Shown here: positions 6,745-11,646 of the stretch, one piece after another
How the letters are laid out: each line of letters opens with the position of its first letter
Numbering within the stretch: the first letter of the stretch is position 1
Assembly: GCA_016176745.1 (NCBI GenBank)
Contig: JACOWO010000001.1
Span: forward strand, 1-14,756
DNA: 14,756 bases
Source of the DNA: Nitrosopumilales archaeon
GTDB lineage: Archaea; Thermoproteota; Nitrososphaeria; Nitrososphaerales; Nitrosopumilaceae
Direction: 5' to 3'
The notes under the pieces: model-generated
Database searches by the model: none
What the model was told of the DNA's origin: nothing
What the model saw: the letters and a program-made list of their open reading frames with translations, nothing else
Position numbers and translations under genes: made by a program

Positions 6745-6752
6745 TTTATAAA
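6745..6752 (+). promoter_or_regulatory. TATA box of the ilv-leu operon
   Basis: TTTATAAA, within AATATTTATAAATTAA, is the clearest archaeal TATA box in the window. Its centre is about 24-25 nt before the ATG at 6772, placing the start of transcription at or a few nucleotides before the leader ORF start codon. The upstream part of the gap (6649-6740) is AT-rich with no further gene visible. Confidence 0.75.
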
Positions 6753-6771
6753 TTAAACACGACCGCAATAG

Positions 6772-6843
6772 ATGGCTGATATGGCTAAACAAAACTCAAC
6801 TAGCACACTAGGTATTCTATCGCTAGTTGGCCTGCTACTGTAA
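6772..6843 (+). CDS. Branched-chain-rich leader peptide of the ilv-leu operon
   Basis: A 23-codon ORF (ATG 6772, TAA 6841-6843), 60 nt before the likely ilvB start. Its first half is polar (MADMAKQNSTST); the last 11 residues read LGILSLVGLLL, with six Leu, one Ile and one Val. The three final sense codons are all Leu (CTG CTA CTG), and all six Leu codons are CTA or CTG, with no TTA or CTT. The composition matches the end products of the downstream enzymes, as in bacterial ilv and leu leader peptides. The TATA box at 6745-6752 predicts a transcript beginning at this ATG, so the ORF would be read as a leaderless message. An unrelated micro-protein is possible, but placement and composition favour an attenuation leader. 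Confidence 0.72.
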   Translation: MADMAKQNSTSTLGILSLVGLLL

Positions 6844-6861
6844 ACTAGTTAGTCTAGTTTT
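6797..6861 (+). promoter_or_regulatory. Putative ribosome-mediated attenuator (four alternative pairing segments)
   Basis: Segment 1, CAACTAGC (6797-6804), is the exact reverse complement of segment 2, GCTAGTTG (6822-6829). Segment 3, AAACTAG (6842-6848), is the exact reverse complement of segment 4, CTAGTTT (6854-6860), with a 5-nt loop. Segment 2 can instead pair with segment 3 (CTAGTT 6823-6828 with AACTAG 6843-6848, 6 bp). So 1:2 plus 3:4 competes with 2:3, as in classical attenuators. The Leu/Ile/Val codons lie from 6808 to 6840, over the loop, segment 2 and the start of segment 3. Segment 4 ends in only four T, a weak terminator. Control of ilvB translation, with its SD at 6891-6896, is an alternative output. 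Confidence 0.55.
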
Positions 6862-6903
6862 CACGATCAAACCTAATAGAAAATGTGAATGGTGATAAAA
6901 AAT

Positions 6904-8592
6904 ATGGAAAATATGTCTGGTTCTAAAGCATTAATGAAGGCCCTAGAAAAAGAAGGAGTAAAGGAAGTCTTTGGTCTACCAGGTGGTGCAAACCTTCCAA
7001 TGTATGATGAGCTTTACAAAAGTAACATACGTCATATTCTTGTAAGGCATGAGCAGTCAGCTGCCCACATGGCAGACGGTTTTGGAAGAGTTAGCAGAAA
7101 GGCTGGTGTATGTTTTGCAACATCAGGTCCTGGTGCGACAAATATCATAACAGGGCTTGCAACAGCGCAAGCTGATTCTGCACCAATGATTGCAGTGACA
7201 GGTCAGGTGCCTGTAAAAATGATTGGACGTGATGCGTTCCAAGAAAGCGACATTATTGGAATATCAAATCCTATTGTAAAATATGCATTCCAACCACGTG
7301 AGGCAAGCGAAATCCCCGAAGTTGTCAAAAAAGGATTTTACATTGCAGAAACTGGAAGGCCGGGTGCCGTACTAATTGACATACCAAAGGATGTGCAGCA
7401 AAATGAGGCAGAGATGAGCTTTCCTGATGAGGTTAGAATACGCGGATATCATCCATGGACAGATCCTGATGTATTAGAAACAGAGCGTGCAATTGATCTT
7501 CTCTTGTCTGCACAAAGGCCAATTATTTTGGCAGGTGGAGGTGTGATAATCTCTACTGCATTTTCTGAGCTCCAATCACTAGCTGAGATGCTAATGATTC
7601 CAGTAGTTACAACATTCAAAGGAAAAGGTGCATTTCCAGAAAATCATGTACTCTCGCTTGGGCCAATTGGCATGCACGGTCATGCTGAGGCAAATAAGCT
7701 AATGGTTGAGGCAGATTGTGTTCTTGCTATAGGAACAAGATTTTCTGACAGGTCCGTTGGAACATTTGAAGAATTTGAAAAAAACTTGAAGATAATCCAC
7801 ATGGATGTAGACCCAGCTGAAATTGGGAAAAACCAGACAACCCATGTTGCAGTAGTAGGAGATGTAAAAGCATCACTTAGGATTATGGTAAAGTTACTCA
7901 TCAAAAGAGCACTAAAAAAATCAGATGACAATGTATGGATAAAACATGTAAACGAGGTTCGTGACTATTGGCGACAAAATCTAAAAATTCATCCAGGTGA
8001 GATGGGTGCTGCAAAAATTTTACGCAAGCTACGTGAGGTATTGCCAAAAGAGGCTATAGTTACAACCGAAGTAGGGCAGCACCAGATGTGGGCATCACTA
8101 TTCTTTGATGTAATTCATCCTGGCACATTTTTTAGCTCAACTGGTCTTGGAACAATGGGCTGGGGCTTTCCAGCAGCAATTGGTGCAAAGACTGCAAGGC
8201 CAGATGTTCCTGTAGTTGACATTGCAGGTGATGGAAGCTTTAACATGACTGAAAACTCGCTTGCAACATCGGTACTAGAAAATCTTCCAGTGATTGTGTT
8301 TTTAGTAAACAACTATTCTCTTGGCATGGTAGCCCAGTGGCAGCGAACATTCTATGACAGAAGAATGATTGGAGTTGATCAAAAAAACTGTCCTGACTAT
8401 GTCAAGCTTGCAGAATCATACGGCGCGCAGGGAATAAGGGCCCAGTCACTTGATGAGCTTGGTAAAGCAATAAAGGCAGGACTCAAAAGTGATGTTGCTA
8501 CTGTAATTGATATTCCAATAGATCCAGAAGAAGACGTCTTACCATTTGTGGCGCCTGGAACGTCACTAAAGGACATGATACTTCCATCATAG
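6904..8592 (+). CDS. ilvB: Acetolactate synthase large subunit
   Basis: 562 residues from ATG 6904. It is a thiamine-diphosphate enzyme condensing two pyruvates to acetolactate, or pyruvate with 2-oxobutyrate, the first common step of Val, Leu and Ile synthesis. The N-terminal domain has VFGLPGGANLPMYD and the catalytic glutamate in RHEQSAAHMADGFGR (near residue 50). The central FAD-type domain contains PIILAGGGV, and the C-terminal domain has the ThDP/Mg motif GDGSF (442-446) ending in NN (469-470). ATG 6904 is chosen because GGTGAT at 6891-6896, complementary to the 16S 3' end, lies 7 nt before it; ATG 6889 upstream in frame lacks an SD. It is the first full gene after the leader ORF. Confidence 0.95.
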   Translation: MENMSGSKALMKALEKEGVKEVFGLPGGANLPMYDELYKSNIRHILVRHEQSAAHMADGFGRVSRKAGVCFATSGPGATNIITGLATAQADSAPMIAVTGQVPVKMIGRDAFQESDIIGISNPIVKYAFQPREASEIPEVVKKGFYIAETGRPGAVLIDIPKDVQQNEAEMSFPDEVRIRGYHPWTDPDVLETERAIDLLLSAQRPIILAGGGVIISTAFSELQSLAEMLMIPVVTTFKGKGAFPENHVLSLGPIGMHGHAEANKLMVEADCVLAIGTRFSDRSVGTFEEFEKNLKIIHMDVDPAEIGKNQTTHVAVVGDVKASLRIMVKLLIKRALKKSDDNVWIKHVNEVRDYWRQNLKIHPGEMGAAKILRKLREVLPKEAIVTTEVGQHQMWASLFFDVIHPGTFFSSTGLGTMGWGFPAAIGAKTARPDVPVVDIAGDGSFNMTENSLATSVLENLPVIVFLVNNYSLGMVAQWQRTFYDRRMIGVDQKNCPDYVKLAESYGAQGIRAQSLDELGKAIKAGLKSDVATVIDIPIDPEEDVLPFVAPGTSLKDMILPS

Positions 8593-8593
8593 T

Positions 8594-9085
8594 GTGATAG
8601 TGATGTGGGCAATATTGTCAATTCTAGTTGAAAACAAACCAGGTGTACTCTTTAAGGTCACAAACTTGTTTAGGGCACGAAATTTTAACATAGATAGCAT
8701 CTCAGTAGGAATAACTGAAAACCCCGAGTTTTCACGTATGACTATAACGACATATGGTGATGAAAAGCAAATCCAACAAATAGTAAAGCAACTAGACAAG
8801 ATGATTGATACTATAGAGGTAAAGCGCCTTGATGAGCATAAAACCGTATACAGGGAGGTTGTCTTGTTTAAGATTAAAGTCAGTAAAGCAGCAGATAGTA
8901 TGGAGATAAACAAGTTGGCAAACGCATATGGGGCAAAGGTCCATGATGCAAAAAAAGACTCTATAATGGTTGAGCTAACTGCAACACCTGATCAGATATC
9001 TGCGTTTGAAGAATTAGTAAAGCCATTTGGCATATTGGAAATCGCAAGAACAGGAATAGCTGCATTACAGAGGAGCGGGGTATGA
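8594..9085 (+). CDS. ilvN: Acetolactate synthase regulatory small subunit
   Basis: Up to 163 residues. An ACT domain opens the protein (ILSILVENKPGVLFKVTNLFRARNFNIDSISVG), followed by the C-terminal ALS_ss domain (EVVLFKIKV...LANAYGAKVHDAKKDSIMVELTATPDQISAFEELVKPFGILEIARTG, read across residues about 97-157). It activates IlvB and usually confers feedback inhibition by valine. GTG 8594, GTG 8600 and ATG 8603 are all in frame. ATG 8603, giving MWAILSIL, is attractive because GTGAT at 8594-8598 can serve as its Shine-Dalgarno. The ORF begins 1 nt after the ilvB stop and overlaps leuA by 4 nt (ATGA), so the three genes are translationally coupled. Confidence 0.93.
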   Translation: MIVMWAILSILVENKPGVLFKVTNLFRARNFNIDSISVGITENPEFSRMTITTYGDEKQIQQIVKQLDKMIDTIEVKRLDEHKTVYREVVLFKIKVSKAADSMEINKLANAYGAKVHDAKKDSIMVELTATPDQISAFEELVKPFGILEIARTGIAALQRSGV

Positions 9086-10599
9086 GAGTTAGAATATTTG
9101 ATACAACACTAAGGGATGGAGAGCAGACTCCTGGCGTTGCATTATCGCCTGAGCAAAAGCTACTCATTGCAAAAAAGCTTGACGCACTAGGCGTAGATGC
9201 AATTGAAGCTGGGTTTCCTATAGTATCAGACGGTGAGCGAGAGGCAGTAAAACTAATTGCACATGCAAACTTGAATGCTGAGATTTGCGGTCTTGCAAGA
9301 ACTAGCAAAAAAGATATCGATGCTATAATAGATTCTGATCTAAGCTATGTCCATACCTTTATTGCAACATCTGACATTCATTTACAGTACAAGCTAAAAC
9401 TAACTAGAGAGCAAGCACTTGAAAAGGCAATAGAGTCTGTCGAGTATGCAAAGTCACACGGACTACAAGTCGAGTTTTCAGCAGAGGATGCAACAAGAAC
9501 TGATCGTGAATTTCTAAAAAAAGTTTATGCTGCAGTAGCAAAGGCAGGAGCAGACAGAGTAAACATTCCAGACACTGTTGGCTATTCTACACCACAGTAT
9601 TTTGCTGAAATCACAAAGGAAACAGTTGAGGTAACAAAGCTTCCAGTTAGTGTACACTGTCATAATGACTTTGGCTTGGCAGTTGCAAACTCGATTGCAG
9701 GACTAGAAGCAGGAGCAGTGTGTGCACATGTTACAATTAATGGATTAGGTGAACGTGCAGGAAATGCATCACTTGAGGAGCTAGTCATGGCATTACAATG
9801 CTTACAGTTTGATAAAAAATGGGAAACAAACATCAACACAAAGCTTCTCTATGATACATCAAGATTTGTTTCAAATCTTGTTGGAATTGCAGTTCAGCCA
9901 AACAAGGCAATAGTTGGCGAAAATGCATTTGGCCATGAATCAGGAATTCACACACATGGAATCTTGAGCAACCCATTGACCTACGAGCCTATCAGTCCAG
10001 AACTTGTAGGCAGAACAAGGTGGCTTCAGGTAGGAAAGCATGCAGGAATTCATGGAATGCTTGCAATGCTTGAAGACTATGGAGTAAAGCCAAACGAAAA
10101 GCAAACACACCAGATACTTGACAGAGTCAAGGCAATAGGAGATCAGGGAAAACATGTTACAGATGTTGAGTTGCTTTCAATTGCAAGCGAAGTAATGGGA
10201 GAACATGGAATAAAAAGAATAGTTCAGCTAACCGGATTTTCTGTCTCAACAGGAATTGGCACAATGCCTTATGCCTTTGTAAAAATAAACATCGACGGTA
10301 AGGACTATTTTGCAACAGACTATGGAGTCGGACCTGTTGATGCAGCACTTAATGCAATACAAAAGATAACAGGAAAAATATCTGAAGTCAGAGTAAAAGA
10401 GTACAGACTAGACTCTATCTCTGGCGGCTCTGATGCATTATGTGAGGTAACAATAAAGCTTGAAGACGCATATGGCAACAAGGTTTCATCAAAATCAGTT
10501 GGCGAAGACATTGTAACAACAAGCGTTCAGGCAATGATTGATGGAATAAACCGAGTAATGCTAAAGAAATCACTAAAGGAAAGCAAGGTAGGAAGTTAA
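9082..10599 (+). CDS. leuA: 2-isopropylmalate synthase (LeuA-type)
   Basis: 505 residues, close to the usual archaeal length. The TIM barrel begins with RIFDTTLRDGEQTPGV (R11, D12 bind substrate and metal). HCHND (192-196) supplies the HxH metal ligands, and INGLGERAGN lies near 213-222. The C-terminal regulatory LeuA dimer domain, about 375-500, includes TDYGVGPVDAALNAI and SISGGSDA, where leucine binds in LeuA. It condenses acetyl-CoA with 2-oxoisovalerate. Citramalate synthase (CimA) has the same architecture, but the neighbouring leuB and Leu-rich leader favour LeuA. ATG 9082 overlaps the ilvN stop and has AGGAG at 9071-9075, 6 nt upstream. Confidence 0.88.
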   Translation: MRVRIFDTTLRDGEQTPGVALSPEQKLLIAKKLDALGVDAIEAGFPIVSDGEREAVKLIAHANLNAEICGLARTSKKDIDAIIDSDLSYVHTFIATSDIHLQYKLKLTREQALEKAIESVEYAKSHGLQVEFSAEDATRTDREFLKKVYAAVAKAGADRVNIPDTVGYSTPQYFAEITKETVEVTKLPVSVHCHNDFGLAVANSIAGLEAGAVCAHVTINGLGERAGNASLEELVMALQCLQFDKKWETNINTKLLYDTSRFVSNLVGIAVQPNKAIVGENAFGHESGIHTHGILSNPLTYEPISPELVGRTRWLQVGKHAGIHGMLAMLEDYGVKPNEKQTHQILDRVKAIGDQGKHVTDVELLSIASEVMGEHGIKRIVQLTGFSVSTGIGTMPYAFVKINIDGKDYFATDYGVGPVDAALNAIQKITGKISEVRVKEYRLDSISGGSDALCEVTIKLEDAYGNKVSSKSVGEDIVTTSVQAMIDGINRVMLKKSLKESKVGS

Positions 10600-10629: not shown

Positions 10630-11646
10630 ATGTATCACATTTCACTAATTACAGGGGATGGTATTGGGCCTGAGATCTCAGAATCTGCAATTTCTGTACT
10701 AGAGACAATTAATGACAAACTTGGACTCAAGTTGTCAGTTGAGACACTACTTGCCGGCGATACTGCGCTTAAAAAAATAGGCAAGGCATTGCCTGATGAG
10801 ACACTAGACTCGGTAAAAAAATCTGATGCGTGTCTCAAGGCACCTGTAGGTGAAAGTGCAGCAGATGTAATTGTAGTATTGCGAAGAATGCTTGATCTTT
10901 ACGCAAACATAAGACCTGCAAAATCGTATCCTAACATGCCGGCTCTAAAAGATAACATTGATCTTGTTATTGCACGGGAAAATACAGAGGACCTTTACAC
11001 AGGAGCAGAGTTTGAAATTGATAACGCAGCAGTTGCAATGAGGATAATTTCAGATCCTGCATCAAGGCGAATTGCAAAATATGCATTTTCTCTAGCAAAG
11101 CAAAGAAACCAAAAAAAGAAGGTAACATGTGTTCACAAATCAAATGTTATGCGAAAAACTGACGGTATATTTGCTAAAGCATGCAGTGAAGTTGCAAAAA
11201 ACTATCCTGATATCAAATTTGAGCAAATGTATGTTGATGCATGTGCGATGAACCTTATCCGACAGCCTGAAGAGTTTGATGTGATTGTAACAACAAACTT
11301 GTTTGGTGATATTTTATCAGATGAGGCAGCACAGGTAGTAGGAGGCCTTGGGATGGCACCTGCTGCAAACATTGGCGATAACTTTGCTTTGTTTGAGCCT
11401 GTACATGGTGCTGCATTTGATATTGCAGGAAAACACATTGCAAACCCATCATCATTTGTCTTATCAATTAAGATGATGCTTGACTGGCTTGGGGCAAAAA
11501 ACAATGACAAAAAATGCTTTGAGGTTGCAAAAAAAGTAGAATCTGCAGTTTATGATGTTGTAAAATCAGGTTCTAAAACTAAAGACATTGGAGGAAACAA
11601 GACAACTTCAGAGTTTACAGCAGAGATAATTAGAAAACTAATATAA
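10630..11646 (+). CDS. leuB: 3-isopropylmalate dehydrogenase
   Basis: 338 residues of the isocitrate/isopropylmalate dehydrogenase family. Motifs are ITGDGIGPE (7-15), the substrate-binding LRRMLDLYANIRP (near 86-98), IARENTEDLYTGAE (near 113-126), the metal ligands in NLFGDILSDE (D227, D231) and the NAD loop FEPVHGAAFDIAGKHIANP (near 257-275). It oxidises and decarboxylates 3-isopropylmalate to 2-oxoisocaproate. LDLYANIRP and the similarity to methanogen LeuB proteins favour LeuB over isocitrate or homoisocitrate dehydrogenase. ENTED replaces the usual ENTEG, a modest oddity. AGGAAAG (10617-10623) is the likely ribosome binding site. leuC and leuD are not adjacent. Confidence 0.88.
   Translation: MYHISLITGDGIGPEISESAISVLETINDKLGLKLSVETLLAGDTALKKIGKALPDETLDSVKKSDACLKAPVGESAADVIVVLRRMLDLYANIRPAKSYPNMPALKDNIDLVIARENTEDLYTGAEFEIDNAAVAMRIISDPASRRIAKYAFSLAKQRNQKKKVTCVHKSNVMRKTDGIFAKACSEVAKNYPDIKFEQMYVDACAMNLIRQPEEFDVIVTTNLFGDILSDEAAQVVGGLGMAPAANIGDNFALFEPVHGAAFDIAGKHIANPSSFVLSIKMMLDWLGAKNNDKKCFEVAKKVESAVYDVVKSGSKTKDIGGNKTTSEFTAEIIRKLI

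Follow-up and report, generated by a model that had tools for sequence, protein, structure and literature searches.

The window, a stretch of 14,756 nucleotides, carries a short open reading frame (ORF) followed by ilvB, ilvN, a leuA-like gene and a leuB-like gene, in that order; all four genes score above the cut-offs of their NCBIfam models (Table 1). The assembly is 1.12 Mb in size, consists of 244 contigs and is 74% complete. Among named records, the closest relatives of the ilvB of the window come from Nitrososphaerota (e.g., Nitrosotenuis, Nitrosopumilus and Nitrosotalea).

Table 1. Features of the ilvB locus, in coordinates of the window.
Feature	Position	Strand	Basis or remark
TATA-like box TTTATAAAT	6745..6753	+	read from sequence
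In-frame upstream ATG and two further codons	6772..6780	+	probably outside the conserved leader
Leader ORF, MAKQNSTSTLGILSLVGLLL and stop	6781..6843	+	20 codons, end LGILSLVGLLL and stop, TAA 6841-6843
Helix A 5' arm CAACTAGC, inside the leader	6797..6804	+	predicted fold; helix class: 0/1000 genus permutations
Helix A 3' arm GCTAGTTG, over the control codons	6822..6829	+	predicted fold; genus permutation
Helix B 5' arm AAACTAG, from the leader stop codon	6842..6848	+	predicted fold; window z -0.3 against shuffles
Helix B 3' arm CTAGTTT	6854..6860	+	predicted fold; TTTT at 6858-6861
GGTGA, possible Shine-Dalgarno (SD) element of ilvB	6891..6895	+	8 nt before ATG 6904
ilvB, acetolactate synthase large subunit	6904..8592	+	TIGR00118, 710.6 bits (cut-off 538.35)
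ilvN, acetolactate synthase small subunit	8594..9085	+	TIGR00119, 176.4 bits (cut-off 56.9)
leuA-like 2-isopropylmalate synthase	9082..10599	+	NF002085, 651.1 bits (cut-off 517)
leuB-like dehydrogenase	10630..11646	+	TIGR02088 (LEU3_arch), 421.3 bits (cut-off 409.8)

The initial annotation of this DNA described a 23-codon ORF behind a TATA box, starting at 6772, rich in branched-chain residues at its end and preceding genes for branched-chain amino acid synthesis. The box, the end of the ORF (8 of its last 11 residues are L/I/V) and the nature of the downstream genes are borne out. The frame and the stop of the ORF read from ATG 6772 (MADMAKQNSTSTLGILSLVGLLL, followed by the TAA) also stand, but its start probably does not. 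In one congener (L083) a GTG, which could still start translation, takes the place of the ATG at 6772, and in another (L084) a one-base insertion puts this first ATG out of frame and into a stop, whereas ATG 6781 and the remaining ORF are kept in both. This argues that the leader is 6781-6843 and that its start codon is probably 6781, about 36 nt after the TATA-like box. The ilvB gene has an additional in-frame ATG at 6889.

The six Leu codons of the leader are four CTA and two CTG, as the initial annotation had stated. Its suggestion that these codons may be rare holds for CTG, the rarest Leu codon in 11 genes of the window (12/279, 4%), but not for CTA, which is common (74/279, 27%). Among the eight terminal codons of 88 family leaders, CTG accounts for 185 of the 384 Leu codons, the background being that of the 11 window genes. 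It is also part of the helix at the leader stop codon (GCTGTA in several genera), so that the roles of sensing and folding are not separable from codon use.

Conservation of the leader codons

The search for ilvB in the family of the window was positive in 217 of 250 genomes (E <= 1e-200). The first set of upstream sequences, made of the window, 29 loci from this search, 60 stretches and 17 named loci (107, of which 100 are unique), was reduced to 99 by leaving out L017, which has no upstream DNA. The ORF is kept in 94 of these 99 upstreams, eight times with a TTG start; MQQQATIGTFGITLLVDLLL, MTKVDSTSISSILLQVELVL, MKLGGSASISGILLLVDLLL and MSTEFTGTFGKVVPVIILL, each followed by a stop codon, are examples. 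The leader is absent in L015, L108, L141 and L148, and doubtful in L165. Seven further family upstreams comprise three (genus g21) with a shorter version and four without the leader, and in all, nine family upstreams have no leader or a doubtful one. The family members that lack it, L108, L211 (genus g3), L141, L148, L015, L205, L209 and L210, are usable as natural deletions.

The codon profile rests on 94 leaders, a set that excludes L165 and the ATG version of L122, the latter being re-entered with a TTG start. The last sense codon is Leu in 94/94 (with L165, which ends in Tyr, left out): all 86 leaders with an ATG start, for which L/I/V/M within the final eight residues had been the selection rule, end in Leu, and the eight TTG leaders were chosen by a rule that demands a final Leu. 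T predominates at the second position of codons -1 to -7 (heterozygosity 0-0.25), apart from codon -4, whose second position is mainly A (0.44) and which encodes Asp or Glu in 64 of the 94 leaders; third positions are variable (0.22-0.70). The conservation of second positions next to variable third positions indicates selection on the leader codons, and not solely on the RNA; the ORF is kept while its nucleotides vary, which the initial annotation had proposed to check.

A TATA-like hexamer lies 31-38 nt upstream of the leader start in 71 of the 94 family members. From this spacing a leaderless or almost leaderless transcript is expected, and the leaderless placement suggested by the initial annotation fits in this near-leaderless form. 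The distance from the leader stop to the first in-frame ATG of ilvB is 27-36 nt in 62/94 and up to 59 nt in the others, and SD-like elements before ilvB vary among the family upstreams.

For the class, 40 upstreams from a class search (33 of its 40 outside-family matches supplied the genomes used) and 29 from an even draw of the order (minus five weak or partial matches) were added. Removal of the duplicates L135 and L287 and of L017, for which upstream DNA is missing, brought the resulting 169 down to 166: 105 from the family of the window and 61 from 19 other families. Families f4, f7 and f11 gave no ilvB match at the cut-off, and f24 lay outside the leader sampling. Among short ORFs of 12-36 codons whose end lies 18-110 nt ahead of ilvB, the one with the highest L/I/V count in the final ten residues was selected, and the same rule was run on the real DNA and on 3,320 dinucleotide shuffles.

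At least seven L/I/V among the last ten residues are found in 102/166 ilvB upstreams, versus 1.2% of the shuffles, and at least six in 123/166, over the 20 families, versus 4.5%. Seventeen of the 20 families hold at least one leader at six of ten. None was found in f2 (0/6), f10 (0/3) and f18 (whose best is one at five), and f3 (8/15) and f21 (2/5) have it in part. Both the conserved ORF in relatives, which the initial annotation had named beforehand as a test, and the branched-chain enrichment that went with it are therefore found.

The same rule gives no excess over chance at six of ten for the upstreams of trpE and hisG (2/58), whose starts were set at a fixed distance from the domain, nor for those of ilvC (0/30) and ilvD (1/29), whose start codons were guessed; the reverse complements of the ilvB upstreams give 2/166. 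When ORFs were picked for any of LIVFMAWC, L/I/V made up 91.8% of such residues, compared to 58.8% in shuffles. The enrichment is specific to L/I/V and does not extend to hydrophobic residues generally. Over 32 groups, positions -2, -3, -5 and -6 are L/I/V in 84-90%, a descriptive profile since the leaders were chosen for these residues. The beginnings of the leaders, their nucleotides and their hairpins differ between families.

In five loci of family f3 (L187-L189, L191 and L192, genus g24), a variant short ORF has a poorer branched-chain end (e.g., MGSIKTINCEMVNRKIFHVKGFLLL and stop), but LL or LLL always precedes the stop; no strong post-stop hairpin was found in the four loci that were folded. 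Outside the class, in a sample of 40 out of 56 genomes, 2/40 upstreams reach six of ten, which is about chance level. Both come from family f41 (L348 and L349) and are alike: a similar leader, MNKSFIIPFRLLLIKVAKLLAPSLVIVVILK and stop, has a long inverted repeat (AAGCGCCTTAAG..CTTAAGGCGCTT) downstream of it. They may represent either a second lineage or a transfer.

The trpE (L212-L239) and hisG (L240-L269) upstreams share a short motif of another kind, G-[DEG]-x-[FLVI]-X, in which X is Trp in 23 of the 28 trpE loci and His in 12 of the 30 hisG loci, other residues occurring 0-3 times. In the trpE loci the motif mostly comes directly after ATG or TTG (MGGHLW, MGDNLW and MGDLVWS, each with a stop). 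At the nucleotide level the motif seems invariant (GGNGRNNNNNTT and, behind it, TGG or CAY), and on visual inspection some hisG loci carry two copies, spaced about 19-20 nt; the motif could thus be an element of the RNA or DNA that displays the cognate codon, and not a peptide. The trpE motif occurs elsewhere at 40 sites in five family genomes; at L336, the site that was examined further, a short ORF lies behind a TATA-like element, with one longer reading frame 3' of it among those listed. Searching for runs of W or H codons gave scattered matches only.

RNA structure around the leader

In the family, helix A can form between codons 2-10 of the leader and its last eight codons, and the 20 nt that follow the stop are able to pair either with the last codons and the stop or with the start region. 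Covariation was tested by comparing the duplex energy of arms from the same genus with that of arms permuted among 13 family genera (1000 permutations). Same-genus arms pair better for N:C (-12.56 versus -10.23 kcal/mol, 0/1000), S:P (-7.04 versus -4.95 kcal/mol, 0/1000) and E:P (-6.58 versus -5.23 kcal/mol, 0/1000), and also for C:P (7/1000) and P:Q (2/1000). The contrast pairs S:C (703), S:E (310), C:Q (517) and N:P (124 of 1000) are not significant. Several pair types occur at many duplex positions, although they were counted on predicted duplexes and are thus biased towards pairing. Helices predicted within the leader and around its stop codon show covariation between genera, and N:C, S:P and E:P point to an RNA fold that could be altered by a ribosome in the leader.

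In 16 other families (42 sequences), the start and the end of the leader also pair beyond permutation (0/1000). Outside the family, pairing between the two halves of the post-stop segment is no better than under permutation (377/1000), and that of the leader end with the post-stop arm is not conserved (303/1000). The post-stop segment folds better than its shuffles on average (mean z -1.48, n=58, 20 values below -2). In the window itself, neither this segment (Table 1) nor the leader (z -0.44; 60/200 shuffles fold at least as well) folds better than shuffles.

The first hairpin starts between -9 and +6 nt from the leader end in 43/44 sequences outside the family and 89/93 inside, counts made without a shuffle control. 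A UUUU within 12 nt after this hairpin is present in just 3/44 sequences outside the family and 31/93 inside, which does not fit an intrinsic terminator in general; genus g17 has it in 12/14, and in the window the TTTT overlaps the 3' arm of helix B. No conserved antiterminator (2:3 pairing) was found over the 13 family genera (619/1000), and an Rfam scan over the whole window gave no match at gathering score. A model in which arms of the leader sequester the SD region of ilvB was rejected, as such pairing shows no excess over permutation (E:SD 647, H5:SD 938, S:SD 361 of 1000).

In family f20 (L303, L304, L306, L311 and L312), the leader begins with ATGGAGGAC and its end holds GTCCTCC (GTCATCA in L306), and AGGAGG precedes the ilvB start. 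A switch over the ilvB ribosome site is possible in this family; pairing of this kind is not general.

A candidate sensing leader and its rivals

Sequence comparison, with the conserved ORF, its L/I/V selectivity, its position and the covarying helices, supports the interpretation of the ORF as a branched-chain-sensing leader. That it senses and acts in cis is very likely, and the overall reading, in which a translated leader peptide would sense the branched-chain supply and control ilvB-ilvN-leuA-leuB in cis, is likely. In the proposed mechanism, transcription would start a few nucleotides before the leader, as expected from the TATA spacing, so that a ribosome would load at or near the 5' end, and the leader would respond to the supply of charged Leu, Val and Ile tRNA. 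When branched-chain amino acids are ample, the ribosome would pass the L/I/V codons, terminate and leave, and the RNA would form the neighboring helices A, in the leader, and B, at the stop codon, which is taken as the low-expression state. When charged tRNA is scarce, the ribosome would wait on the terminal L/I/V codons and melt helix A; waiting near the stop, it would also cover one arm of helix B, and ilvB expression would be favored. The output could be either transcription, e.g., through termination dependent on FttA/aCPSF1, or translation of ilvB. We infer that the leader is translated and that ribosomes stall on it, and so too the sign of the effect and its transcriptional or translational output. 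The step in which the waiting ribosome melts helix A and masks helix B is the favored form of the switch, yet a tentative proposal that may well prove wrong; an objection to the masking of B is that, given the ribosome footprint, helix B lies beyond the reach of a ribosome halted at the first control codon.

The same features could be read differently. In the genus of the window, the four CTAG-bearing segments CAACTAGC (1), GCTAGTTG (2), AAACTAG (3) and CTAGTTT (4) are complementary and could form a trp-type attenuator, with 1:2 and 3:4 (as in the predicted fold) or 2:3 paired. A ribosome at codon 10, the first Leu, would mask segment 1, 2:3 would form, and the 3:4 hairpin with its TTTT would be avoided; by the general size of a ribosome footprint, codon 10 is placed such that segment 2 lies just ahead of the stalled ribosome. 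This is nonetheless rather unlikely, because neither the 2:3 pairing over the 13 family genera nor that of the leader end with the post-stop arm outside the family is conserved, and the genus is represented by three closely related genomes, too few for covariation. Covarying helices would also be expected of a structured RNA element, riboswitch-like or a protein-binding pair of hairpins, that regulates ilvB and has the ORF as a by-product. The Asp/Glu codon -4 sits in an arm of helix A, so the conserved peptide in part reflects conserved RNA. Such an element is improbable all the same: the codon pattern is frame-specific, start and stop codons are kept, L/I/V-rich ends recur in most families despite differing nucleotides, peptide beginnings and hairpins, and Rfam has no match in the window.

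The short distance between the leader stop and the first in-frame ilvB ATG, together with the variable SD-like elements, would suit a translated upstream ORF that merely loads or re-initiates ribosomes for ilvB without sensing. As this explains neither the L/I/V selectivity nor the absence of leaders before ilvC and ilvD, it is decidedly improbable. A small functional hydrophobic protein, to which the hydrophobic end and conserved position might point, is hardly credible, since L/I/V prevails so strongly over the other hydrophobic residues, the beginnings of the leaders differ between families, and the hydrophobic stretch, at about 8-10 residues, is rather short for a typical membrane helix.

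For the sensing leader, the balance tips slightly towards a wider reading: across most families of Nitrososphaeria, a near-leaderless leader would sense branched-chain aminoacyl-tRNA and control ilvB via helices at its stop codon, dispensing with the U-run terminator and the antiterminator used by bacteria, as an archaeal form separate from the bacterial one. As part of this reading, the occurrence of leaders in most families suggests that the leader has probably been present since early in the class.

What is new here is a putative variant, in another domain of life, of the sensing of amino acids by a ribosome on a leader, a textbook bacterial mechanism. If the reading is true, archaea read their amino acid supply in the same way as bacteria, and the leader would offer a direct assay for the effect of a ribosome on fresh mRNA on archaeal transcription or downstream translation. 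For ammonia-oxidizing archaea, an abundant group in which genetics is difficult, it would also provide a cis-regulatory mechanism that can be tested.

Relation to known systems

No precedent for an archaeal amino acid leader peptide was found in the open-access literature, in line with the initial annotation, which knew of no established example; most subscription papers lay outside the search, and priority is unproven.

The leader peptides of the enteric ilv, leu and trp attenuators are rich in codons for the amino acids that their operons produce, and the archaeal leader resembles them in this. It differs from them in that it has no general U-run or 2:3 pairing, its control codons lie at its very end, and its start is near-leaderless. 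T-box and other leaders also sense amino acid supply at the RNA level before biosynthesis genes; the archaeal leader is sited like these Rfam leaders but, unlike them, gives no match at gathering score in the window. By the title of a paper of Morbach from 2000, a leader peptide is reportedly formed without a ribosome binding site in Corynebacterium.

In two reports on Actinobacteria (PMC1262725, PMC11857589), a short ORF that contains stretches of codons for Ile, Val and Leu precedes ilvB or ilvBNC and adjoins or overlaps a hairpin; the hairpins are followed by poly-U, and the Corynebacterium leader is modelled as terminator, antiterminator and anti-antiterminator. The archaeal leader shares with them the short ORF with branched-chain codons before ilvB and the adjoining or overlapping hairpin, whereas it mostly has no U-runs, no conserved antiterminator, and works with archaeal transcription and translation machineries. 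In the archaeon Methanosarcina mazei, ribosome profiling assigned 10% of the unannotated small ORFs to 5' UTRs (PMC11456600). The accessible part of that report names no amino-acid-sensing leader among them; like them, the leader described here is a small ORF in the 5' UTR of an archaeal gene.
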